Assembly (NCBI GenBank): GCA_018402585.1
Contig: JAGYIO010000001.1
Span: 310,001-374,000, forward strand
Direction of reading: 5' to 3'
Source of the DNA: Chthoniobacterales bacterium
Lineage (GTDB): Bacteria > Verrucomicrobiota > Verrucomicrobiia > Chthoniobacterales > JACTMZ01
DNA: 64,000 nucleotides
Shown piece after piece: positions 3,732-28,602 of the stretch. Positions within the stretch are counted from its first letter, which is position 1; the number at the start of each line of letters is the position of its first letter. Under the pieces are notes generated by a model, which was not told the DNA's origin, searched no databases, and was given only the letters and a program-made list of their open reading frames with translations. The translations under genes were made by a program, and so were the position numbers.

Positions 3732-4880
3732 TCAACTCTCAACTCCGTAGAGAGCTTGCACGAGGCGGGCCGGGCGCGACTCGCGCAGCACGCCATTTTC
3801 CATCCGGTTCATGACGTAGGCAAAGCCGATCCTGTTTTCCGGGTCGGCGAAGGCGAGGCTTCCGCCCGCTCCCGGATGCCCGAAGGCCGTAAGAGACGGA
3901 CCGAGCGTGGAGCGCACTTTGGCGCCCGCGGCGTCGAGCGGGTCCATCATAAAGCCGGCCGAAAAGGCGGTCGGTTGTTGGAGCACGAGGTCACGTCCGT
4001 TGCTCGCACGTTGGGTCAGCGCCTCGTGCCACGGACCGTGGAAAAATTCCCCCGCCGCCAGACGGTCGTAAAACCGGGCCAAAGACCGCGCATTGCCGAT
4101 CCCGCCGAAAGAAGGAATCGAGGCGCGCCAGACTTCCGGCCGGTTTGTGGCGGCCGCGCCGACCACCCCCGACGGCTGGGCGAACGATCGCGCGGTGAGC
4201 GACGCCCGGTCAGCCAAAGCATTTTCAAACGGTCCCGGTTCTGTCAAATCTTCGACCCGCGCCGCGTGCATCCGCGCCACATGGCCATCCAACTCCGCCG
4301 GTAACCCAATCCAGAACTGCAGCGCCAGCGGATCCCCGAAGGCTTTGCGCCAATACGCGCCGAGCGACAGCCCCGCGGTGCGCCGTACGAGAGCATCGAG
4401 CAAATAACCGAAGGTTCGCGGCGCGTAACCGTGCGCGGTGCCCGGCGCCCAATTCGGCACCTGCGCGGCCAGCGCGGCCGCCACCCCTTCCAAGTCAAAA
4501 ACCTCCAAGCCGCCCTGCTCGAGCACGGCCAAACCGGCCCGGTGGGCGAGCAGGTCGGAGATCGTCACCTTGCTTTTTCCGGCCGCCCCAAATTCCGGCC
4601 AGACCTCGGCCACGGGGCCCCCGAGAGGGACCTTGGCTTCCTGCAAGGCATGCAGGGCACAAGCCGCCGCCGGACCTTTGGTCGCCGACCAGCAGAAAAC
4701 AATCGTGTCCTCGGTCCATGGTGATGTCTGCGCCGCATCGCGCCACCCGCCGCCGAAGCGCAACAACTCGTGGCCGTCCTGCCAGACACAGACCTCGGCA
4801 CCCAGCTCTTCCCCCCGGGCGAAATGATCCTCGAAGGCCGCCCGCACCCGCGCGGAGGCGGCCCCGTCGATGGGCTTCAT
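3732..4880 (-). CDS. Beta-lactamase-fold serine hydrolase
   Basis: A 382-aa protein of the class C beta-lactamase/esterase (EstB-like) superfamily. The nucleophile motif SxxK is SATK in CWSATKGPAAA near residue 70. The YxN equivalent is probably within HGYAPRTFGY, and the third element is HPGAGGS rather than KTG, which is usual for esterase-type members. No signal peptide is seen, so it is probably cytoplasmic, more likely an esterase or amidase than an antibiotic-resistance enzyme. Its ATG overlaps the TPR gene stop (ATGA), indicating co-transcription. Confidence 0.85.
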   Translation of the reverse strand: MKPIDGAASARVRAAFEDHFARGEELGAEVCVWQDGHELLRFGGGWRDAAQTSPWTEDTIVFCWSATKGPAAACALHALQEAKVPLGGPVAEVWPEFGAAGKSKVTISDLLAHRAGLAVLEQGGLEVFDLEGVAAALAAQVPNWAPGTAHGYAPRTFGYLLDALVRRTAGLSLGAYWRKAFGDPLALQFWIGLPAELDGHVARMHAARVEDLTEPGPFENALADRASLTARSFAQPSGVVGAAATNRPEVWRASIPSFGGIGNARSLARFYDRLAAGEFFHGPWHEALTQRASNGRDLVLQQPTAFSAGFMMDPLDAAGAKVRSTLGPSLTAFGHPGAGGSLAFADPENRIGFAYVMNRMENGVLRESRPARLVQALYGVES

Positions 4881-5341
4881 ACCAACTTGCCGATAACGTC
4901 TTCCAAATCAGGATCGTAACGCGCGATTTCCCGGAATTTATCGTCCAGATTGAAGCTCATCTGCAGATAGCTCTGCGCCTCCTCCGGATTGCCCAAGACC
5001 GCGTGGTAGCAGCCGAGATTGTAAAAATAGACCGGCTCACGGAGCAGCGAGGCCGGGCCCTCCTGCAACAAAGCCATCGCCTCGGCGGTGCGGCCGAGTT
5101 CATGCAGGCAGAAGGCGCCGTGGATGTAGCCGAGGGGCAGGTCCGGACGGTCGGTGCGCAAAGTCTGGCAGGCGGTCAGCGCCTCCGGCCACCGCCGCGC
5201 GCGCATGAAAATATAAACCCTCAACTGGGCCACACCCTCGTGGCCACGTTCCTCCGCCGGCACCCGCTCCAATTCGGCAAGCGCCTCGTCCGCCATGCCC
5301 AACTCGAGATATCCTTGGGCGGCATTGATGTAATGTTGCAG
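4877..5341 (-). CDS. Small tetratricopeptide-repeat protein
   Basis: A predicted soluble helical-repeat protein of about 154 aa with TPR-like units such as YFYNLGCYHAVLGNPEEAQ. The first ATG leaves a truncated first repeat: the frame remains open upstream through QHYINAAQGYLELG, which completes a TPR helix, so a CTG at 5341 or a TTG at 5302 is a better start than the ATG at 5296. It lies between uvrC and the serine hydrolase gene, and its stop overlaps the latter's ATG. The specific function is unknown; TPR proteins usually mediate protein contacts. Confidence 0.75.
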   Translation of the reverse strand: MQHYINAAQGYLELGMADEALAELERVPAEERGHEGVAQLRVYIFMRARRWPEALTACQTLRTDRPDLPLGYIHGAFCLHELGRTAEAMALLQEGPASLLREPVYFYNLGCYHAVLGNPEEAQSYLQMSFNLDDKFREIARYDPDLEDVIGKLV

Positions 5342-5355
5342 GGCGATGAGCGTAG

Positions 5356-6951
5356 CTAAGGCGAAAGGCGGCGGCCGCGCAACCGTTTCGCCGCCTCGCC
5401 GCCGAGGGAATCCCTGATTTGCAGGGCCAACTTGGGGCCGATTCCCGGGACCGCGGCGATGTCCTCGACCGTGACACGGCGCAAGCGCTCGACCGAACCG
5501 AAAGCGCGCAACAGCGCCTGCTTGCGCGATTTGTTCACGCCCTCGACATCATCCAGACGGCTCTCGGAGACCCGGCGCTTCATCAACAGTTGGTGGTATC
5601 CGTTGGCCACCCGGTGGGCCTCGTCCCGGATGCGCTGGAGCAATTTCAATCCCCCGCTCTCGTGCGACAGACGCAAAGGCTGCGGGTCGTTCGGGAAATA
5701 AATTTCTTCCCGCTCCTTGGCCAGTCCGATCACCGGCTGCCCGCGCAGCCCGAGCCGGCGCAACTCGTTGACCGCGCTGGACAATTGCCCGCGGCCACCA
5801 TCGACCACCACGAGATCCGGAATACGGTCCGCCGCGGGCATAAGCAGCCGAGCGACCGCCTCACCGGCCTCCTCCTGGCTAAATTCGGCGGCCTCCGGAT
5901 GCACTTCGCGCGCCACAGCCAGCAGCCGCGCATAACGCCGGCGCACCACCTCGGCCATACTCGCAAAGTCATCCTGTCCCTCCACCGACTTGATCCGGTA
6001 ACGCCGGTAGCTGCTCCGGTCCGGCACACCGTCCTTGAAGCGGACCATCGAAGCCACCACATGCGTATTCGTGATATTGGAAATGTCGAAGCACTCCATG
6101 AGGACGGGCGGGCGCGGCAAGCCGAGGGCCTCCCCGAGTTCGTTCAGGTCGGCTAGCGGGTTGACCGCGCGGGGCAAAGCATCCCCGCGCAGAAAACGCC
6201 GCGACTTCGCCGAGGTGCGCCGCAGCGCGGTGACCAGATCACGCAGCGCCGCTGCCTTTTCAAAATCGTGCCGGGCGGCCGCGGCCTGCATTTCCTGCTC
6301 CAACTCTTCGGGCACGTCTTTGCTCCGGCCCTCCAGAAATTTACAGGCCTCAAGCACCCGCGCACCGTAGTCCGCCTCGCTGATCTTGCCAGCGCATGGT
6401 GCAGAGCAATTTTTGATGATGTCGTCGTGGCAGTGAAGGTAGTCTTTCTCGGTCGGCACGCGCGGACGGCAGGAACGCAAGCCGTATTTGCGTTTGAGAA
6501 TCTCGAGGGTGGCGCGCAGTGCCCCCGAATGCGCGTAGGGTCCGTAGTAGCGCGCGCCATCGTTCTTCTTCAGCCGCACAAGGGAAAATTTGGGAAAGGG
6601 ATCGTCCAGGTTGACTTTGATCGAGAGGAAATTTTTGTCGTCGCGGAATGATATGTTGTACTTCGGCCGGTATTCCTTGATCAGCCGACCCTCGAGCAAG
6701 ACCGCCTCGGCGTCGGAACGGACCACGTGCAAGGTGAAATCCCAGACCGAGTCGAGCAAGGCCCGAGTCTTCAGGTCGGCCATCCGTGAGCGCGCCGGGG
6801 TGAAATAGTTTGCCAGCCGCTTGCGCAAATCGCGCGCCTTGCCCACATAAATGACCCGGTTGAGCCGGTCCCGCATGAGGTAAACCCCCGGCTTGTGCGG
6901 CACCTCGTGCAACCGGGCGCGGAGATCAGGCTTGTCGGGGGCTGCAGGCAT
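5356..6951 (-). CDS. uvrC: Excinuclease ABC subunit C
   Basis: UvrC makes the dual incisions of nucleotide-excision repair. At 531 aa it is shorter than E. coli UvrC (610). Domains in order: GIY-YIG nuclease (PHKPGVYLMRD... VIYVGKARDLRKRL, residues 10-45), UVR helix (AARHDFEKAAALRDLV, about 205), RNase-H-like nuclease with LMECFDISN and LVVVDGGRGQL, and C-terminal helix-hairpin-helix (VEDIAAVPGIGPKLALQI). The ATG at 6951 (MPAAPDKP) is chosen; the frame runs far upstream but that part is non-coding antisense to the next gene. UvrA is encoded 10 kb away; uvrB is not in the window. Confidence 0.96.
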   Translation of the reverse strand: MPAAPDKPDLRARLHEVPHKPGVYLMRDRLNRVIYVGKARDLRKRLANYFTPARSRMADLKTRALLDSVWDFTLHVVRSDAEAVLLEGRLIKEYRPKYNISFRDDKNFLSIKVNLDDPFPKFSLVRLKKNDGARYYGPYAHSGALRATLEILKRKYGLRSCRPRVPTEKDYLHCHDDIIKNCSAPCAGKISEADYGARVLEACKFLEGRSKDVPEELEQEMQAAAARHDFEKAAALRDLVTALRRTSAKSRRFLRGDALPRAVNPLADLNELGEALGLPRPPVLMECFDISNITNTHVVASMVRFKDGVPDRSSYRRYRIKSVEGQDDFASMAEVVRRRYARLLAVAREVHPEAAEFSQEEAGEAVARLLMPAADRIPDLVVVDGGRGQLSSAVNELRRLGLRGQPVIGLAKEREEIYFPNDPQPLRLSHESGGLKLLQRIRDEAHRVANGYHQLLMKRRVSESRLDDVEGVNKSRKQALLRAFGSVERLRRVTVEDIAAVPGIGPKLALQIRDSLGGEAAKRLRGRRLSP

Positions 6952-8194: not shown

Positions 8195-8778
8195 GCGACC
8201 AGCGCGGCCAGCGCCCGCCCGCGGTGGCTGCAGGCGTGTTTCTCGCGCGGAGTGTACTCCGCGAAGGTCCGGCGGCTTCCCTCGGGGACGAATAAAGAAT
8301 CGTAACCGAATCCACCCGCACCCCGCTCCGCTGGCGCGATGAAACCTTCCACCGCGCCGGAGAAGGTCCGGACCACCTCCCCCTTCCTCGCCAAGGCCAG
8401 CAGGCAACGGAAACGCCCGCGCCGCTCGCGACCGCGCACCTCGCCCAGTTTTTCGCGCAACAGCGCACGATTGGCCGCCATGTCGGCGTCTTCGCCCGCG
8501 AACCGCGCCGAGCGCACGCCCGGTGCCCCACCCAGCGCATCGACCTCAAGCCCCGAGTCATCCGCCAGCACCCACCCATCGTAGTGCGGCGACGCCGCCA
8601 GTGCCTTCAGCTTCGCGTTCTCCTCGAACGTCTCTCCCGTCTCCGCCACCTCCGCCAGATCCGGCCGCGCCGTGAGATCCTCGACCTCCCATCCGGCACC
8701 CAGAATCTCCCGCACCTCGCGCGTTTTGCCGGCATTGCGCGTGGCGAGGAGCAGGCGTTGTTTTGACACCTCGTTCAT
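8164..8778 (-). CDS. rdgB: dITP/XTP pyrophosphatase (RdgB/HAM1 family)
   Basis: A 204-aa house-cleaning nucleotide pyrophosphatase that hydrolyses dITP, XTP and related non-canonical purine triphosphates. Family signatures are [17 protein letters not shown] at the N-terminus, the metal and substrate site [43 protein letters not shown], and the C-terminal SHRGRAL. The ATG at 8778 (MNEVSKQRL) fits the family; the frame extends further upstream but only antisense to leuS. It overlaps tail-to-tail with the lipoprotein gene. Confidence 0.95.
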
Positions 8779-8808
8779 TCCCGCCAAAATGCGCGCTTCT
8801 CCAGTCCC

Positions 8809-11800
8809 ATGTCGAGCCAACGCAAACAATACCCCTTCCCGCAATTCGAGCCCAAGTGGCAGCAACGCTGGACCGAAACCGCGGCCTTCCGCACGCCGAA
8901 CCCGGGTGAGATGGACTTCGATCCGGCCAAACCAAAATACTACGTTCTCGACATGTTCCCCTACCCGAGCGGCGAAGGACTCCACGTCGGCCATCCGGAG
9001 GGTTACACCGCGACGGATATCCTCGCGCGCTGGCACCGCATGCGCGGCTTCAACGTTCTCCACCCCATGGGCTGGGACGCCTTCGGTCTGCCCGCCGAGC
9101 AATACGCGGTTAAAACCGGACAGCACCCCGCGGTGACCACGGCCAAGAATGTGGCGCGCTTCCGCCAGCAGCTCGACCGGATCGGCTTCAGCTACGATTG
9201 GTCGCGCGAGGTCAACACCACGGATCCGGACTACGTCCGCTGGACCCAGTGGATTTTCCTGCAGATCTACAACTCGTGGTTCAACCCCGCGACCAACCGG
9301 GCTGAGCCGATTTCGACCTACGAGGGCGCCGACCCGGACAGCGTCCGCCTCGCCTACGTCGCCGAAATGCCGGTCAACTGGTGCCCGGAACTCGGCACCG
9401 TCCTGGCCAACGAAGAAGTGGTCGACGGCAAAAGCGAGGTCGGCGGCTTTCCGGTCGAACGCCGCCCCATGCGCCAGTGGGTTCTGCGCATCACCGCTTT
9501 CGCCGAACGCTTGCTCACCGGTCTGGAGACCCTCGACTGGCCGGAATCAATCAAACTCCTGCAAAAAAACTGGATCGGACGCAGCGAAGGTGCCTTGGTT
9601 GATTTCGTCCTCGAGTCCGGCGAAAAGCTCACCGTCTACACCACCCGCCCCGACACCCTCTTCGGCGCCACCTATCTGGTGCTCGCCCCGGAGCATCCGC
9701 TCGTCGCGACCATCACGACTGAGGACCAACGTCCCGCGGTCGACGCCTACATCACAGCCGCCGCGACAAAATCCGAACGCGACCGCCAAGACGCGTCGAA
9801 GGAAAAATCCGGTGTCTTCACCGGCGCGTATGCCCTCAATCCGGTGAACAACGAACGCATCCCGGTCTGGATCGCCGACTACGTCCTCACCGGCTACGGG
9901 ACCGGCGCCATCATGGCCGTCCCCGCCCACGACGAACGCGACCACGAGTTCGCCCAAAAATTCCACCTCCCCATCATCGAGGTGGTGCAGTCCCAGACAG
10001 GGGGCACGGGCGTCCCGCCCGTCACGACCAGTTCCACACCCTTCTTCGAACCTCTCCAACAAATCACCGAGCACGAGCGCAACCTCCCGCACTGGCAACA
10101 AGGCGCCAAATACTACTTTGTCACCTGGCGTCTCGCCGACAGTCTGCCCGCCGAAGTCATCCACCACTGGCAACTCGAGGCCCAAGCATGGCGTGCCGCC
10201 CGCCAGCAACCTCTCGGCGAGGCCGACCTTGCCGAATACCACCGCCTCTTCTCCGACCGCATCGAGACCGAACTCGACGCAGGCCGCGGCGCATGCATCC
10301 TGCGCGACCCCGCGCTCGCTTCCCTCGTCGCGGAAGCTCTCCACCACTTCGACGGCGAGCGCTACGATGTTGTCTCATTCGTCATCATGCCGAACCATGT
10401 GCACGTTCTTTTCCGCATGGGCGATGCCGAGGATCTGGCCAAGGTCGTCCACAGCTGGAAAAGCTTCACCGCCCGCGAGATCAACAAGGCACGCGGCACC
10501 AACGGACCAGTTTGGCAGGACGAGTATTTCGATCGCATCGTCCGTGACGAGAGTCACCTCCATCAACTGGTCGGCTACATCGAACGCAACCCCGAGAAGG
10601 CAGGGCTGAAGGATGCCATACGATACACGGCCGAGACGGCCGTGCCCCCTGCCCAGACCGGAACGGCCGCTCCCCCCCCAGGGGGCACGGGCGTCCCGCC
10701 CGTCACGACCCGCTCCACACCCTTCTCCCCCTTCACGGGTGAAGGCACCGCGATCAACTCCGGCCTCCTCGAGGGACTCCCCACCGCCGTGGCGAAAAAC
10801 AAAATCACCGCGTGGCTCGCCGAACACCAACTCGGTCGCGCCACCGTGCAATTCAAATTGCGCGACTGGCTTTTTTCGCGGCAACGCTACTGGGGCGAAC
10901 CTTTCCCCGTCATCTGGGAAAACGGACGCCACCGCGCCCTCGACGCCTCCGAACTTCCCGTCCGCTTGCCGGAGCTGGCCGACTTCAAGCCGACCGGCAC
11001 GGCGGAGCCTCCGCTGGCCAAGGCCACGGACTGGGTCCGCTACTCCGCGACCGCCACCCGCGAGCTGAACACCATGCCGCAATGGGCCGGGTCTTGCTGG
11101 TATTACCTGCGCTACTGCGACCCGCGGAACGGCGAGCGCTTCATCAGCGAAGAAGCCGCACGTTATTGGCTCGGCGAGGGCAAAGAAAAACCCGGCGGCG
11201 TCGACCTCTACGTCGGCGGCACGGAACACGCCGTGCTCCATCTCCTCTACTCGCGCTTCTGGCACCTCGTGCTGCACGATCTCGGACACCTCCCCACGCC
11301 CGAACCGTTCCAGCGACTCGTCAACCAGGGCATCATCCTCGGCATAGATGGACAAAAAATGTCGAAGAGCCGCGGCAACGTGGTCAATCCGGACGAAGTG
11401 ATCGACGCTTACGGCGCTGACGCCTTCCGGCTCTACGAAATGTTCATGGGCCCGCTCGAGCAAATGAAGCCGTGGAGCATGAAGGGGGTCGAAGGCGTCT
11501 ACCGCTTCCTCGCCCGCGCCTGGCGCCTGGTCATGAGCGAAGACCAGGAGGGCCACTGGCAGCTCTCGGCCAAAGTAGCCGAGGTCGAACCGACCGCGGC
11601 CCAACTCCGCGTCCTCCACGCCACGATCAAAAAAGTCAGCGCCGACCTCAGCACGCTCTCCTTCAACACCGCCATCTCGCAGATGATGGTCTGCGTCAAC
11701 GAACTCACTGCCGCGCAAAAATGCCCGGTTTCCGCCCTGCGCACCTTGCTGCTTCTCCTCAGCCCCTTCGCCCCGCACATGGCGGAGGAACTTTGGGAGC

Positions 11801-12078
11801 AGCTCGGTCGAAAATTCCCCGGCTTCGCCGGCGCCGCGCAGACCCAAGTCTGGCCGACTCACGACGAATTGCTCCTGGTCGAAAACGAGGTGGAAATCGT
11901 CCTGCAAATCAACGGCAAGGTCCGCGACAAACTCGTCATGACCAAAGACGCCACCCGCGAGCAACTCGAGGCCGCGGCCCGCGCCCGCGAAAAATTTACC
12001 GCCCAGCTGGCCGGCAAAGAAATTGTCAAAGTCATCGCCGTCCCCGGCAAGCTGGTCAATTTCGTCGTCCGGGGCTGA
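8809..12078 (+). CDS. leuS: Leucyl-tRNA synthetase with in-frame RAYT transposase insertion
   Basis: Class Ia synthetase charging tRNA-Leu. The 1089 residues exceed the usual 810-870; residues about 397-640 are foreign. Before the insert: [13 protein letters not shown] (HIGH region, about 59), editing-site [13 protein letters not shown], and [19 protein letters not shown] (about 365-383). After it: [30 protein letters not shown] at about 850, and the anticodon-binding and C-terminal domains. The insert occupies the loop between the editing-site aspartate segment and the end of the CP1 domain, a position where LeuRS families vary in length. No stop or frameshift occurs, so one polypeptide carrying a transposase domain is predicted. 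ATG at 8809 ([18 protein letters not shown]) is the standard start. Confidence 0.95.
9999..10726 (+). mobile_element. REP-associated tyrosine transposase (RAYT) unit embedded in leuS
   Basis: A Y1/HUH transposase of the TnpA_REP group read in the leuS frame. Its body (about 10046-10630) starts [20 protein letters not shown], then [14 protein letters not shown]. It has the HUH pair in [11 protein letters not shown] (LeuRS residues 530 and 532), [27 protein letters not shown], and the likely catalytic tyrosine in [14 protein letters not shown] (residue 590). Flanks are direct repeats 9999-10045 and 10680-10726 (47 bp, 2 mismatches), each with a REP hairpin acgggcg-tcc-cgcccgt. An inverted palindrome (acggccg-aga-cggccgt) lies near 10628. 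Repeat spacing is 681 bp, exactly 227 codons. Nothing indicates inactivation. Confidence 0.9.
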
Positions 12079-12135
12079 ACCGCGCTTGCAACTGGCGGGA
12101 TCGGAGCACTAGGTTGCGGTCGAGATCCCCCTCGC

Positions 12136-13548
12136 ATGAAGAACCCTCTGGCCGGTCTTGTCGTTGTCATTTTCGCCACTGCGGCCCATGCCATGGAGGA
12201 CCGCTTTTGGGATTACTACACCCCTTATCCGAGCAATTACATCGGCTCCTCCCAATGGTGGGCAGGTGATGCCGCCAGCGGTGACTGGTGGGGTACCCGC
12301 AACTGGCTGGATGAGGACCGCGGCGTGGAATTCTCTTTCACCTATGTCAACAACTTGGCCGGCAATCCCAGCGGCGGGTTGAGTCAGGGTTTCACCTACA
12401 CGGACAACATCGCCTTCGGCACGAAGCTCGATTTGGAAAAACTCATCGGCTGGCGCGGCGGCACTTTCACCATCGCGGCGACCGACCGCAACGGCAACAG
12501 CCTATCCCGCGACTACATCGGCAACCAATTCACCGTGCAACAGGTCTACGGCGGACAGACCGTCATTCTCACCGACCTCCACCTCACCCAGAAGTTTTGG
12601 AACGAAAAAGCGGAGGTCAAGGCCGGACGCTTTTCCTCCGGTGACGACTTTGCCAGCTCCCCTCTCTACTGGCTCTACATGAACAATGGCATCGACGGCA
12701 ACCCGCAGGCCTTGCCGGTCAATGCCTCCTTCTCCGCCTACCCATGGGCCAGTTGGGCCGCCCGCCTGCGCGTCGATCCTTGTCCGGAATGGAACGTCAT
12801 GGCCGGTATCTACCAGGTCTCGAACAAAACCTTCAACCGCGAACTCCACGGGGTGAATTTTTCCTTCGAAGAAAGTGACGGCGTCATGATCCTCGGACAA
12901 ATCGGCTGGACCCCGGAATTTTTCAAACGTCCCGTGACCCGCGCTGCGGCGGACTCCGCCTCCACCGCCAAAGCCGCCATCGCGCCGGGGGACGGCCGGG
13001 TCGTCTTCGACCATGACGCGGAGAACGCGACCGTGGACTCCAGCATGCGCGGCTTGCCCGGGCACTATTGGTTCGGCGGTTACTACTCGTCCTGGTCCTA
13101 CCCGCAATTCGGAACCGCCGACACCGCGGCGAATGCCTACGGCTTCTACTGGCACGCGGACCAGATGGTTTTTCAGGAAGATCCGGGCAGCAGTCAGGGA
13201 CTCACGCTCTGGACCGCCTTCGTGCTCTCACCGCAGGAAAACACCGCCAAGCTTCCCTTCCAATGGAACTGCGGCGCTGCCTACCAAGGGCTGCTGCCGC
13301 AACGCGACCAAGATACCACCATGTTCGGTCTGGCTTACGGGAATTTCAGCGCTGACTACGGCAACGCCGGAGACGCCTTCAACGGCGATCCCGTCAGCTA
13401 CGAGATGGCCCTCGAGTGGGGCCACCGGGTGCAGCTTTCGAACTTCCTCTACATTCAGCCGAACCTCCAATACATCGTACAGCCCGGCGGCACCGGCTCC
13501 ATCCCCGATGCCCTCGTCCTCGGCATGCAGATCGGCGTGACCTTCTAA
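12136..13548 (+). CDS. OprB-family carbohydrate-selective porin
   Basis: A 470-aa outer-membrane beta-barrel with a signal peptide (MKNPLAGLVVVIFATAAHA). Near the N-terminus is the OprB-like block SGDWWGTRNWLDEDRGVEF, followed by alternating amphipathic strands rich in W, Y and G (DNIAFGTKLDLEKLIGW, LTDLHLTQKFWNEKAEVKAG). The C-terminus ends in an aromatic residue (LGMQIGVTF), as expected for Bam-dependent assembly. It should admit sugars or other small polar solutes. It follows leuS by 57 bp, probably with its own promoter; malQ lies beyond the repeat block, convergent. Confidence 0.85.
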   Translation: MKNPLAGLVVVIFATAAHAMEDRFWDYYTPYPSNYIGSSQWWAGDAASGDWWGTRNWLDEDRGVEFSFTYVNNLAGNPSGGLSQGFTYTDNIAFGTKLDLEKLIGWRGGTFTIAATDRNGNSLSRDYIGNQFTVQQVYGGQTVILTDLHLTQKFWNEKAEVKAGRFSSGDDFASSPLYWLYMNNGIDGNPQALPVNASFSAYPWASWAARLRVDPCPEWNVMAGIYQVSNKTFNRELHGVNFSFEESDGVMILGQIGWTPEFFKRPVTRAAADSASTAKAAIAPGDGRVVFDHDAENATVDSSMRGLPGHYWFGGYYSSWSYPQFGTADTAANAYGFYWHADQMVFQEDPGSSQGLTLWTAFVLSPQENTAKLPFQWNCGAAYQGLLPQRDQDTTMFGLAYGNFSADYGNAGDAFNGDPVSYEMALEWGHRVQLSNFLYIQPNLQYIVQPGGTGSIPDALVLGMQIGVTF

Positions 13549-13583: not shown

Positions 13584-13822
13584 CTCGCGTTACGGCGGAC
13601 CCGCCGGGCGAGTCGACTTCTGGTTTGGGCAGGGGGCACGGGCGTCCCGCCCGTCACGATCCAAACCCATCGGCAGGATGCCGATGCCACACCCCAATGA
13701 CTTGAGTCACGGGCGTCCCGCCCGCAGGGTCTTTCGAAAAACGGGCGAGACGCCCGTTCCCCTTGGGCTTTGCCGCCCCAGTTACTCCCAGCACACACCC
13801 GCCAACGCGCGGGTTTAAGGAC
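13584..13822. repeat. Composite REP block, about 235 bp (copy A)
   Basis: From taactcgcgttacggcggac to cgcgcgggtt this segment is roughly 90% identical by eye to 35590-35825. It contains a direct REP (acgggcg-tcc-cgcccgt), a catcggca-gga-tgccgatg hairpin, another REP and an inverted REP (acgggcg-aga-cgcccgt), spaced as in copy B. No gene lies in it. Such BIME-like arrays may act as transcription attenuators or nuclease-resistant 3' ends, here after the porin. Confidence 0.75.
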
Positions 13823-16342: not shown

Positions 16343-16516
16343 CGGGCTCCGGCGACCCTATTTGCCCCAAGTAAGGGTTGGCTCGGCCACCAGATGTGGG
16401 CGGTTTGTCTTCCTGCCGCGACGAAATTTTTCATTTGGCGCGTTGCCTAAGGCACACTTTCGGCTATTTTGTGCGGTCCTCTGGCGGAGACCCGACCCGT
16501 CGACCAACCATCCGGC

Positions 16517-19500
16517 ATGTCCAACCGCCAGCGCCCCGCGACCCAGCACCAAGTCCTCCGCATCCGCGGTGCGCGCCAAAACAATCTCCGCGGCATCGAC
16601 CTCGATCTCCCCCGCGGCCTCCTCCACGTCATCACCGGCCCGAGCGGTTCGGGTAAGTCTTCCCTCGCCTTCGACACCATTTATGCCGAAGGCCAGCGGC
16701 GCTACATCGAGACCTTCTCCCCCTACACGCGTCAATTCTTCGACCGCATGGACAAACCACGCGTCGACTCGATCGAAGGTATCCCGCCCGCCATCGCCAT
16801 CGAACAAGCGAACGGCGTCAAAAACACCCGCTCGACCGTTGGCACCATCACGGAAATCAACGACTACCTCAAACTCCTCTTTCCCCGCCTCGCCGTCGCC
16901 GCGTGTCCGCAATGCTCCAAGCCGATCCAACCCGAAACCGCCCGCAGCATCGTCCGCGAGGCCATGCGGCGCTTCGCCGGACGCACCGTCCTCGTCACCT
17001 TCCCGGTCGGCACCGGGGACCTCGAAAAGCGCTCACCCGCCCAATTTTTCGAGTTTCTGCAGCAACAAGGTTACCTCCGCGTCTGGCTCGAGAAAAAAAT
17101 CCTCCGCGTCGACGAGACCCCACCCAAAAAACTTCCGCCCGTCCTCCACGTCATTCAGGACCGCCTCGCCGCCTCGGATGAAACTCGCCTGACCGAAGCA
17201 ATTGAAACCGCCTTGCGTTTGGGCAAAGGACGTATCCTTCTGGTCGACGCCGAAACCCACGAAAGCCACCCGTTCTCCACCGGTTGGCACTGCGCCTGGT
17301 GCGACCTCGACATCCGTCCGCCCACCCCCGGACTCTTCAGCTTCAACCACCCGCTCGGCGCCTGCCCGGAATGCCGCGGCTTCGGGCGGGTCATCGGCCT
17401 CGACTGGCAACGCGTCATCCCCGACCGCTCGCGCACCCTGGCCGAAGGCGTGGTCCGCCCGTTCCAAAGTGGCATGTCCCAAGAATGCCAAGCCGACCTT
17501 CTCCGCCACGCGCGTAAACGCGATCTCGACCTGCACTGCCCGTTCGAAGACCTGCCGCAGTCCGATCAGGACTGGGTCATCAAGGGCGAACGCCGCCCCG
17601 GTGAGGCCTTGTCGGAAGTCTGGGACAACGACCGTTGGTATGGCGTGCAGGGTTACTTTAATTGGCTCGAGACGAAAACCTACAAGATGCACGTCCGCGT
17701 GCTCTTGAGCCGCTACCGCAGTTACAACGAATGTCCGAAATGCCACGGCGGACGCTTCCAACCCGAGACCCTCAACTACCGGCTGGCCAGCGCGCAGGAT
17801 GAAGCCCTCACCCTCCCCGAGATGGCCCACCGCCCGATCAGCCGCCTGCGCGAATTTCTGGTCGGCCTGCAAATTCCCCAGGGCGACCACACCACGCAAC
17901 TCCTCCTCGACCAAGTCACCTCGCGCCTCTCCTACCTTGAGGAAGTCGGCCTTGGTTACCTCACCCTCGACCGCCCGACCCGCACCCTCTCCGGCGGCGA
18001 AGTCCAGCGCGTCAACCTCACCACCTGCCTCGGCGCCTCGCTGGTCAACACGCTCTTCGTCATGGACGAACCCAGCGTCGGCCTCCACCCGCGCGATCTC
18101 GGACAACTCCTCAGCATCATGCGCCGCCTGCGCGACAACGGGAACACCCTCCTTGTCGTCGAACACGAGGAAGCCGTGATCCGCGCCGCCGATTGGCTGA
18201 CCGACATCGGTCCCGGCCGCGGCGAAACCGGCGGACAACTCATGTTCAGCGGTCCGCCCGCCCAAATCGCCGCGCAAAAAGATTCCCTCACCGCCGATTA
18301 CCTCCTCGGCCGCCGCTCCATCCCCATCCCGGCCAAACGCCGCAAAACGAAAAAATTCCTCAAGCTCCGCGGGGCCTCGCTCCACAACATCGAAAAACTC
18401 GACGCCGACTTTCCCCTTGGCGTCTTCACTTGCGTGACCGGGGTCTCCGGCTCCGGAAAATCGACCCTGGTCCACGGCCTCCTCCACCGCAACCTCCTCC
18501 GCGAACGGGGCGAACCGGTCGAGGAAGACGCCGGCACGATCAAGAAACTGACCGGCATCGAACACGTCGGTGAAGTCGTCATGATCGACCAGTCCCCGCC
18601 CGGCAAATCCTCCCGCTCGACCCCCGTGGTCTACCTCGGAGCATGGGACCACATCCGCGACCTCTTCGCCCAAACCCCCGCCGCCAAGGGCGCCGGCCTC
18701 GGCCCCTCCACCTTCAGCTTCAACTCGAACAGCGGACGCTGCGAACGCTGCGCCGGTCTCGGCTACGAACGCATCGAGATGCAATTCCTCAGCGACGTCT
18801 CCCTCGTCTGCAGCTCCTGCGGCGGCAAACGCTTCCAGCCCCACGTGCTCCGCGTCCACCTGGACGGACAATCCGTCCACGACGTCCTCGAAATGACCGT
18901 CACCCAGGCCATCACCTTCTTCAAAGATTTCCCCAAGCACCAAAAAATCACCGTGCCGCTGCAAACCCTCGAGGACGTCGGACTCGGTTACCTCCGGCTC
19001 GGGCAACCGACCAGCTTCCTCTCCGGCGGAGAATCCCAGCGCCTCAAACTTGCCGCCCGCCTCGCCGACACCGAAGCCGAGGCCTCGCTCCTCCTCTTCG
19101 ACGAGCCGACCACCGGACTGCACTTCGACGATATCGCCCGGCTCCTCGGCGTCTTTCACCGTTTGGTCGAAGCCGGACACACCATCATCGTCATCGAACA
19201 CAATGTGGAAGTGATCAAGTCGGCCGACCACGTGATCGACATCGGCCCCGAGGCCGGGGCCGAGGGCGGCAAGATTGTCGCCGCGGGCACGCCGGAAGAA
19301 GTCGGGCAAAGCCAAGAGTCCCGCAGCGCCCCCTTTCTCAAAGCGGCCCTCGAAGAGCCAAACCACGAAGCCACCCTCCTCGCCGCCGAGCCCCTGGCCC
19401 CGCCCGTGGCCGCGAACCACAACCGCATCCGCATCACCGGGGCCCGCGAGCACAACCTGAAAAATATTTCCCTCGAAATTCCCCGCGACGAATTCGTGGT

Positions 19501-22024
19501 CGTGACCGGCCTGAGCGGTTCGGGCAAATCTTCCCTCGCCTTCGACATTCTCTTTGCCGAAGGCCAGCGCCGCTTCCTCGACTGCATGTCGACCTACGCC
19601 CGCCAGTTCGTCGAGCAGATGGAAAAGCCGGACGTCGATCATATCGACGGGCTCCCCCCGGCCGTGGCCATCGAGCAACGCATCTCGCGCGGAGGCGGCA
19701 AATCCACCGTGGCCACCATTACCGAAGTCTACCACTTCCTCCGCCTCCTCTACGCCAAGCTCGGCACCCAATACTGCCCGGCCTGCCAAGTCCCCGTCGC
19801 CACCACCACCCTCGCCGAGGTGGCCGATAAGGTCCGCACCGCCTCGCAAGCCGGACCCGTCCAAGTCTTCGCCCCGTTGGTCAAATCGCGCAAAGGCTAC
19901 CACAAGGAAGTCGCCGAGTGGGCCGTGCGGCATGACTTCACCACCCTGCTGGTCGACGGGAAGCTGATCAAGGCGGACAAATTCCCTGAACTCTCCCGCT
20001 ACCGCGAACACTCGATCGATGTCCTCGTCGGCCAAATTAGCAAAGCCTCCGAGGAAGACTCCCTCGCCCTGGCCCGCCGCGCCCTCGAAATCGGCAAGCA
20101 TACCGCCCGCCTGGTCCGCGGCACGGAGAGCGAACTGCTCAGCACCGAAATGGCCTGCCCCTCCTGCGCCCGCGCCTTCGAACCGCTCGACCCGCGCATG
20201 TTCTCCTTCAACTCCCCCCACGGCTGGTGCCAGACCTGCCGCGGGTTCGGCCTGGTCTATGACAATGCAGTCAAGACCGACCAGGCCCGCACCCAACTCG
20301 AAGCCGATCTGCAGGAGGAACAGGCCCGGGAGGAAGCGGAGAAGGATGTGGCCCGCCCCTGCCCGGATTGCGAGGGACTACGGCTCAATATCGTGGCCCG
20401 CAACGTCCGCGTCGACCAGCGTCCCATCGCCGACTTCACCCGCGCCAGCGCCCGCGATGCGGCCGAAATACTCGACACCCTCGTTTTCCGCAAACACCAC
20501 GACCCTCTGGCCGCCGACATCCTCCCCGAGATCCGGCAACGCCTCGGCTTCATGCAACGGGTCGGACTCGACTACCTTACCCTCGACCGGCCCGCCACCA
20601 CGCTCTCCGGCGGCGAAGCCCAGCGCATCCGCCTCGCCGCCCAACTCGGATCGAACCTCCGCGGCGTCCTCTACGTTCTCGACGAGCCGACCATCGGACT
20701 GCACGAACGCGACAACCGCAACCTGCTCGACGCCCTCGAGGAACTGGTCAAACAGGGCAATTCCCTGCTCGTGGTCGAACACGACGAGGAAACCATGCGC
20801 CGCGCCACCCGGATCATCGACCTCGGGCCCGGGGCCGGCCGGCGCGGCGGCGAAGTGATCGCCTCCGGAACCCTCGAGGAAATCCGCGCCTCGAAAGACT
20901 CCGTGACCGGACGGTTCCTGGCCAACCCGCCCCAACGCCCGTCGCGCGGCAGCCGCCGTTCCCTCAAGGACAAAGATCTGCACTGGCTCGAATTGAAAGG
21001 CGCCTCCCTGCACAACCTGCAGAATATCGACGCCCGGATCCCGCTCGGACGCCTCACCGTAGCCTGCGGCATTTCCGGGTCGGGCAAATCATCACTCTTG
21101 CGCGGCACGCTTGTCCCGGCCTTGAAGGACGCTATGACCCGCCGCGGACGCAAACCTTCCCGCAAAGCGGTCCCGCCCCCCTATGACAAATTGCTCGGGG
21201 CCGAGCACATCGCCGGCGTCCACATGGTCGATCAATCGCCCATCGGCAAAACCTCCCGATCCACCCCCGCGACCTACATCAAAGTCTTCGACGAAATCCG
21301 CCAACTCTTCGCCGGACTCCCCACCTCCCGCATGCGCGGCTACACTGCCAGCCGGTTTTCCTTCAACACCGACGGTGGACGCTGCGAGACCTGCCTCGGC
21401 CAGGGCGCGATCAAACTCGAGATGAGTTTCCTCCCCTCCAGCTGGCTCCCCTGCAGCGAGTGCAATGGCAGCCGCTACAACCACCAGACCCTCGACATCA
21501 CCTACAATGGCAAGACCATCGCCGATGTCATGCGCATGACCGCGGCCGAGGCCGCCGAATTTTTCGATGCCCATCCGAAAATCCGCCACGCCCTCCGTCT
21601 CCTCGTCGAAACCGGCCTCGGCTACCTCACCCTCGGCCAGCCCAGCCCCACCCTCTCCGGAGGCGAAGCCCAACGGATCAAACTGGTGACCGAACTCTCC
21701 CGCACCGGGGCGACCAAAGGCCGCCGCTTGCGCGAAGACCAACGAGGCAACTTCTATCTCCTCGAAGAACCGACCATCGGACTCCACATGGCCGACGTCG
21801 AACAACTCATCGGCATCCTCCACCGCCTGACCGACGAGGGCCACACCGTCGTGGTCATCGAGCATAACCTCAGCGTCATCGCCGAAGCCGACTACGTGAT
21901 CGAGATCGGACCCGAAGCCGGGGCCCAAGGCGGACAACTCGTCGCCGCCGGCCCGCCCGAAGAGGTCGCCCAAGTCCAAGGAAGCCCCACCGCCCCCTTC
22001 CTCAAACCCCTTCTGAACTTGTAG
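16517..22024 (+). CDS. uvrA: Double-length UvrA, excinuclease ABC subunit A (four ABC modules)
   Basis: The DNA-damage sensor of nucleotide-excision repair, but 1835 aa instead of about 940: two UvrA-like halves in tandem. Walker A motifs lie near residues 41 ([10 protein letters not shown]), 642 ([10 protein letters not shown]), 997 ([10 protein letters not shown]) and 1517 ([11 protein letters not shown]). There are four LSGGE signatures ([48 protein letters not shown]). Each half carries CxxC zinc modules, for example CAWCDLD with CPECRGFG and CERCAGLG with CSSCGGKRF. UvrA normally dimerises, so this chain may be a covalent dimer. ATG at 16517 ([10 protein letters not shown]) is chosen; the upstream open frame has no family similarity. 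Whether a normal-length uvrA exists elsewhere cannot be seen. Confidence 0.93.
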
Positions 22025-28535: not shown

Positions 28536-28602
28536 GGCAGGGGGCACGGGCGTCCCGCCCGTCTCGATCAGAAAGCACGGGCGAGACGCCCGTGCCCCCT
28601 GT
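28536..28602. repeat. Facing REP pair (BIME-like)
   Basis: cagggggcacgggcg-tcc-cgcccgtc, then 13 bases later the inverted gcacgggcg-aga-cgcccgtgccccctg. This is the cleanest two-REP unit in the window and matches the core of the MITE-like elements. It truncates the Avd-like frame. Confidence 0.8.

Follow-up and report, generated by a model that had tools for sequence, protein, structure and literature searches.

The leuS gene of a Chthoniobacterales bacterium, located in a 64,000-nucleotide stretch of DNA (the window), raises the question of how a complete transposase can reside in frame inside leucyl-tRNA synthetase (LeuRS), an essential enzyme, and whether it is more than a passenger there. 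We consider it likely that the insert is an element bounded by repetitive extragenic palindromes (REPs) and encoding a REP-associated tyrosine transposase (RAYT), which is translated as an extra domain in the CP1 loop of the sole LeuRS found. Judged from comparisons among related genomes, the insert is probably a captive RAYT that is active and spreads in a homing-like manner, and it would belong to a set of RAYT lineages, each residing at a fixed position within an essential enzyme.

The genome of the window (G000; 2.46 Mb in 35 contigs, 89.6% complete) carries a leuS frame that is open for 1089 codons on the forward strand, as an earlier note on this DNA had stated, with no stop in the insert (coordinates in Table 1). 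The synthetase is intact on both sides: HVGH (8983-8994), TTRPDT (9640-9657), PAHDERD (9922-9942) and KMSKS (11356-11370), which we take to be LeuRS signatures, were all present, and the NCBIfam model TIGR00396 (leuS_bact) scored 993 bits against a cut-off of 548, with matched stretches on either side of the insert. The insert comprises 247 residues (395-641 of the protein) and lies just past the PAHDxRDxEFA segment, in a loop whose length differs between the solved T. thermophilus and N. gonorrhoeae enzymes. In the alignment to relatives' LeuRS that the earlier note had proposed, G006 and G001, two members of the genus, have 8 residues at the position of these 247. Another member, G002, carries a full-length fusion that is 91% identical to the window protein and likewise open. 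A second leuS, which would make the interrupted copy dispensable, was not found above cut-off in a profile search of the 89.6% complete G000 assembly, the remaining matches scoring at most 79.7 bits. The claim that splicing motifs are missing also held: there was no intein model among the Pfam or NCBIfam matches to the window protein (E ≤ 0.001) and no Rfam match over positions 8500-12400 (E ≤ 1), and an intein or intron is therefore unsupported.

That the CP1 editing domain contains a complete Y1/HUH transposase, as had been proposed, was borne out by profile searches and alignment. Pfam Y1_Tnp matched residues 517-594 with 40.1 bits (cut-off 23), and H530 and H532 of the HUH motif, together with Y590, which we take to be the catalytic tyrosine, were unchanged in all 46 aligned sequences. 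The RAYT part of the predicted structure (residues 411-610) had block pLDDT values of 84-98, with one block at 69, and a Foldseek search with this part returned TnpA-REP (4er8) at rank 49 (E 2e-5, TM by target 0.59, rmsd 7.1); 4er8 was also the best sequence-level match of the domain, though a weak one (E 0.0036). The whole-protein model was poor for LeuRS (mean pLDDT 60.4, pTM 0.39), probably because the input alignment was nearly all RAYT, so that the RAYT domain alone is usable; the insert ends were modelled at low confidence and are linker-like. Identity as an IS200/IS605 element was considered and rejected, since the IS200 transposase model NF033573 gave 22 bits on the insert (cut-off 55) and the other RAYT-like loci of G000 are just 30-36% identical, with no near-identical copies. 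No in-frame ATG, GTG or TTG occurs between VVQ and LPHW, the first later one being ATG codon 527, which adjoins the HUH motif; the nearest in-frame starts 5' of the insert are the GTG codons for LeuRS residues V392-V393. With no initiation codon of its own before the catalytic motif, the transposase is most simply produced as part of LeuRS.

Direct repeats had been proposed as the bounds of the insert. They do exist (48 nt each, with 96% identity and a spacing of 681 nt), but the element is bounded by inverted REPs and the direct copy is an extra. The LeuRS-embedded RAYTs of G433, G434, G437 and G438 have a REP at the element start and an inverted REP at the end. The direct copy downstream may be what is left of a second element in tandem, a reading suggested by the existence of tandem RAYTs in locus L192. 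That locus (G267:C330, frame 4174-6324 on the minus strand, 717 aa) holds two tandem RAYTs with equal match scores, and its host is unsupported. The 5' REP is predicted to form a hairpin of 7 bp, with unremarkable DNA-folding z-scores (-1.9 and -1.5).

The REP core occurs 186 times in G000 at up to 2 mismatches, compared with 0 for a reversed control pattern. Elsewhere in the genus there were 4 copies in G002 (two of them at the leuS insert), 13 in G010, 3 in G007, 1 in G003 and 0 in the remaining 6 members, and the control pattern was found 0 times in nine genomes and once each in G003 and G007. The G000 REPs sit in larger repeat units, some of them in tandem at ~222-232 bp (L075: 1501, 1733, 1955). 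Three further RAYT-like loci in G000 share 30-36% identity with part of the insert, and no REP at up to 4 mismatches was found within about 1.5 kb on each side of any of the three. One of them, on the minus strand (L292, G000:C1:413793-414095), is broken by an internal TGA. Because it is the only REP-flanked one of the four RAYT-like loci in G000, the LeuRS-embedded RAYT is the best candidate for the enzyme behind the spread of the G000 REPs. Other LeuRS-RAYT carriers had 24 (G433), 53 (G434), 6 (G437) and 3 (G438) REP cores, and REP amplification as a general result of carrying a LeuRS-RAYT is unsupported in G437 and G438.

The genus of the window offered a comparison of occupied and empty alleles. 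RAYT was missing from leuS in 9 of the 11 genus genomes (eight complete genes, plus G005, in which the site was read on one contig). The leuS of G010 (L014) carries in this CP1 loop an in-frame REP (GGTGVPPV) but no RAYT, which could mark a landing site or be a remnant. Distances were compared in 9 of the 11 genomes, omitting G005 (leuS split between contigs) and G008 (not parsed). Between G000 and G002, dS was 0.487 and 0.449 in the two leuS flanks and 0.109 in the RAYT insert, and the leuS of G002 was nearest to the empty allele of G006 (dS 0.14, 0.20), next to the empty allele of G001, with G000 outside. Since the dS of the insert is far below that of leuS and the nearest alleles are empty, the insert arrived after its hosts had diverged and reached the same site by transfer; the same two observations led us to reject simple vertical descent of insert and leuS together from a G000/G002 ancestor. 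On the 5' side, G002 is G006-like up to 18 nt from the junction (86 of 93 informative sites), and on the 3' side G002 and G006 differ at 30 of 180 nt compared with 45 of 1080 farther out (p 1e-8), with many of the divergent G002 sites agreeing with G000. These patterns indicate that the insert passed between species into the equivalent leuS loop and that its immediate 3' flank bears traces of recombination. This one mapped event has the form expected of homing-type transfer with co-conversion of the flank, and plain recombination would look alike.

The earlier note knew of no LeuRS of this kind; the RAYT does form an in-frame domain, but the protein is no one-off, as the same architecture recurs in many host genes. 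A single match of the fused protein spanning the insert was found in at least 8 of 384 genomes of the class. When 213 genomes of the order were searched for RAYTs, matches were obtained in 143, and 71 of the 113 listed RAYT rows (98 bits or more) fell in frames longer than 400 aa, counting frame lengths transcribed by hand and some long frames without a supported host (L192, L213 and L221, for example). The long frames fetched for study were picked for their length and are uninformative on the frequency of embedding; L049 and L050 were fetched as context of known leuS loci, and 16 fetched regions contained standalone RAYTs as controls. Hosts were assigned by comparing the frames, together with named contigs, with host reference sequences. 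By this means 88 distinct RAYTs had the same host on both sides (CarB 32, RecG 16, LeuRS 15, AlaRS 6, ClpB 4, MetH 4, TsaC 4, ValRS 3, ThrRS 3 and HsdR 1), nine of which, including the HsdR row, are source frames of the references and match by construction, their hosts resting on profile models; 14 more RAYTs had the host on one side.

Curated host models were above cut-off for CarB, ValRS, AlaRS, ClpB, MetH, TsaC, ThrRS and RecG; in L039 (HsdR) the host model was below cut-off, and in L045 the RAYT model alone matched. An HsdR host was above cut-off in three proteobacterial metagenome-assembled genomes (MAGs), and outside the order Pfam models also identified PriA, a Mur ligase, MmeI, MqnA and RarA as hosts, with the models for PglX and adenosine deaminase under cut-off. 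L134, from a record without a MAG title, is a CinA carrying a C-terminal RAYT. The insertion site was near-constant within each host with the exception of MetH, which had two sites. In L258 (G358:C150:1-7200) a single MetH frame carries two RAYTs at separate places, the first at the contig edge, and the RAYT-bearing CarB of L234 (G505:C82) has a stop in its C-terminal part, from either sequencing error or real decay.

Embedded RAYTs retain their catalytic residues. The HUH motif was present in all 122 full-length embedded RAYTs and both HUH and the tyrosine in 113 of them, against 61 and 57 of 63 standalone RAYTs; all were recovered by similarity to intact RAYTs, a sampling biased towards intact copies. 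The 45 codons upstream contained an ATG for 35 of 108 embedded and 50 of 54 standalone RAYTs, and for RAYTs of the window's type only the embedded figure was 29 of 77, against the same 50 of 54 (p 5e-11). These catalytic and start counts omit 9 duplicates, L001, L003, L049, L050, short matches and 13 frames longer than 330 aa without a supported host, and host support was set by hand for 23 of 125 embedded rows, partly from flank reading alone. For the insert of G000 and G002, dN/dS was 0.30, and of the 16 other pairs whose inserts had dS below 1.2, 14 gave 0.13-0.36, values which indicate that the insert is under purifying selection.

We built a tree by a quick method from 162 RAYTs of the same type as the window's, with short and duplicate rows omitted. 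Host labels required 40 changes on it compared with a shuffled mean of 92.1, and none of 200 shuffles was as low. CarB RAYTs needed 2 changes over 34 rows and TsaC RAYTs formed one clade; MqnA RAYTs were nested among those of CarB, and one RarA RAYT among those of ClpB. The RAYTs of one genome, G056, were scattered across the tree (L034 in CarB, L036 in ValS, L269 standalone). The window RAYT belonged to a six-row clade, all in LeuRS and from two families (SH-aLRT 99). LeuRS labels changed 5 times over 15 rows, with 2 changes forced by well-supported branches, and therefore the CP1 loop was probably entered more than once. For a second RAYT type there were 8 host-label changes against 14.1 when shuffled, MetH and ThrS not being clearly clustered. 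The trees thus indicate that RAYTs cluster by host site.

At the CarB site, L242 (G458:C183) and L263 (G495:C99) hold a RAYT of the second type, so that different lineages use one loop. Among pairs of CarB with host dS below 1.0, 39 of 47 (pairs that are not independent) carry inserts more than 35% different in protein, and in G500 and G505 the inserts are 47% different at a host dS of 0.21; such divergent inserts in similar hosts show that inserts are gained, lost or replaced. Within one genus, CarB is occupied in G056 and G303 and empty in G354, G044, G036, G464 and G462. The idea that residence in an essential enzyme protects the transposase against loss is accordingly half right, as a single genus can contain both occupied and empty alleles and CarB inserts come and go.

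Table 1. Positions of the leuS frame, its embedded RAYT and the associated REPs in the window
Feature	Position	Strand	Remarks
leuS reading frame with embedded RAYT	8809..12078	+	1089 aa; open-frame reading and leuS profile
N-terminal part of LeuRS, including HVGH and most of CP1	8809..9990	+	residues 1-394
5' REP (CAGGGGGCACGGGCGTCCCGCCCGTCACGACC), translated in frame	9998..10029	+	fits consensus of 29 distinct exact-core REP contexts
RAYT domain	10033..10626	+	residues 409-606; profiles, alignment, structure model
HUH motif PNHVH	10390..10404	+	both His invariant across 46 aligned sequences
Catalytic Tyr codon, Y590 of YIERNP	10576..10578	+	invariant across 46 aligned sequences
3' REP, inverted, 88% complementary to 5' REP	10627..10651	-	RAYT element end as in relatives
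Extra direct copy of 5' REP and first RAYT codons (STPF)	10679..10726	+	origin inferred
LeuRS C-terminal part: remaining CP1, KMSKS, anticodon-binding domain	10732..12075	+	residues 642-1089
Dispersed REP core	13635..13654	+	further exact copies at 28543, 35638, 42369(-), 57789

Elsewhere in the window, positions 16469-22021 encode an 1851-aa UvrA-like protein with repeated UvrA modules.

If the insert is a captive and active RAYT, a single polypeptide of ~120 kDa would be made that charges tRNA-Leu and also has single-strand nuclease/transposase activity, and this activity would have mobilised the 186 REPs of G000. The element would persist because the essential reading frame holds the RAYT frame open, and would spread as an in-frame allele copied into empty alleles by homologous recombination. 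Several observations weigh against this account. The NCBIfam model NF047646 (REP_Tyr_transpos) matched residues 498-603 with 75.1 bits, slightly below its cut-off of 80. Internal initiation at GTG 392-393 within LeuRS may occur, and when GTG and TTG are included, the RAYTs with some possible start number 86 of 108 when embedded and 52 of 54 when standalone. Two insert pairs involving the divergent L241 had dN/dS of 0.66-0.67. The 3' tract of G002 is just partly G000-like, with 19 of 180 nt differing, so that the donor was probably another, related lineage. REP cores numbered 0-10 in 11 relatives in which no LeuRS-RAYT was seen, a range that includes G437 and G438, and a stricter 26-nt REP pattern gave 0-4 copies in G433, G434, G437 and G438. 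About 10% of G000 is absent from the assembly, and many of the surveyed genomes are MAGs.

An unlikely alternative, though one to be taken seriously, is that RAYTs land anywhere and that the insertions which last and stay open are just those in frame within permissive loops of conserved genes, the embedded RAYT being inert and its passage between species an ordinary recombination of leuS fragments. This requires no new activity, and it agrees with the variable length of the loop among solved LeuRS, with the shortness of the tract around the transferred insert and with the fact that REP amplification does not always accompany the fusion. An inert passenger would not, however, be expected to keep its catalytic residues in 113 of 122 cases or to show dN/dS below 0.4 in 15 of 17 close pairs; the clustering of RAYTs by host site across families and the presence of different lineages at one site also speak against it. 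It is highly improbable, in our judgement, that the RAYT has instead been retained for the benefit of its host as a domesticated regulatory domain, for example by binding REPs in its own mRNA or by coupling amino acid supply to REP spread. Purifying selection on the insert and the fixed sites in several tRNA synthetases would suit such a role, but the hosts are functionally mixed (CarB, RecG, ClpB, restriction genes), and patchy occupancy within genera and differing inserts in similar hosts are unlike a host function.

We regard it as equally improbable that two products arise, the RAYT being excised from the protein by splicing or proteolysis or from the RNA by splicing, or also made on its own by internal initiation, so that LeuRS would function free of the RAYT or the RAYT free of LeuRS. 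That an essential enzyme must tolerate 247 residues in its editing domain makes removal attractive, and the in-frame GTG codons V392-V393 lie just upstream; on the other side stand the searches without an intein model or Rfam match, the want of a start codon ahead of residue 527, and the linker-like, low-confidence insert ends, which make a tolerated domain plausible. Least credible of all, and barely worth entertaining, is an artefact of assembly or binning, or a leuS that is broken here and duplicated at another locus. REP repeats at the insert borders and a draft genome of 35 contigs speak for it, but the frame is open in both the window and G002, the same fusion occurs in separate genomes with substitutions of their own, and G000 has a single leuS. 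The chimera that the earlier note had named as a refutation is thus very unlikely, because 15 distinct LeuRS-RAYT fusions occur at the same loop; the fusions in separate genomes and the single leuS led us to set aside both a chimera and a second copy.

Beyond the reading of the insert as an active captive RAYT, we offer tentatively, and with more doubt than conviction, the idea that embedded RAYTs form a class of homing elements that do not splice, with every lineage tied to one loop of one essential enzyme. While replication or transformation exposes empty or rival alleles as single strands, the RAYT would nick them and be copied in by recombination, its protein serving as a permanent domain of the host enzyme; it would also feed genomic REPs and now and then found a lineage at a new site, a step suggested by the nesting of MqnA among CarB RAYTs and of RarA among ClpB RAYTs (in either direction). 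Inteins and homing endonucleases likewise reside in frame in essential enzymes, at fixed sites, with site-tied lineages and patchy occupancy. Embedded RAYTs share with them this fixed-site in-frame residence, the site-tied lineages, the patchiness and transfer with a divergent tract beside the insert. They differ in that no splicing domain was found in them, in that the domain presumably stays in the protein, and in being HUH transposases; the likeness is one of behaviour, not of descent.

RAYT or TnpA-REP transposases, with their REPs, REPINs and REPtrons, are an established system, treated as genes of their own in passages of PMC8049555, PMC6006769 and PMC3733652. The window RAYT shares with these the HUH and tyrosine core, REP hairpins on both sides, dispersed genomic REPs and the fold match to 4er8; it differs in having no start before its catalytic motif, in being a domain of an essential enzyme and in occupying a recurrent site. 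A few unexpectedly long family members were dropped as fusions or annotation errors, according to PMC6006769. In-frame intragenic REPs and Rickettsia palindromic elements (RPEs) are reported from Rickettsia and Opitutus terrae, in conserved genes that include tRNA synthetases (PMC3733652); section 15 of that paper gives inserts encoding 20-82 aa and mentions no enzyme. Palindromic repeats read in frame are common to those cases and ours, and the G010 leuS REP lies in the same loop, whereas the window leuS holds a whole transposase. No account of a whole RAYT as an in-frame domain of an essential enzyme was found in the accessible portion of the open-licence PMC literature, supplements excluded. 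The parts are known and the lifestyle appears to be undescribed, and we classify the insert as a RAYT that lives in a new way.

An insert in an essential gene would normally be expected either to disappear or to remove itself by splicing, yet here a complete HUH transposase remains as a domain. Embedded RAYTs occur in tRNA synthetases, CarB, RecG and other enzymes, in one bacterial order and beyond, and they raise the question of whether the embedded enzyme drives its own spread. They also carry a caution, namely that overlong transposase matches discarded in surveys may belong to this class. Collectively they provide a natural collection of insertion-tolerant loops and show a route by which domain insertions can arise in universal enzymes, and for the RAYTs themselves they suggest a strategy of persistence.

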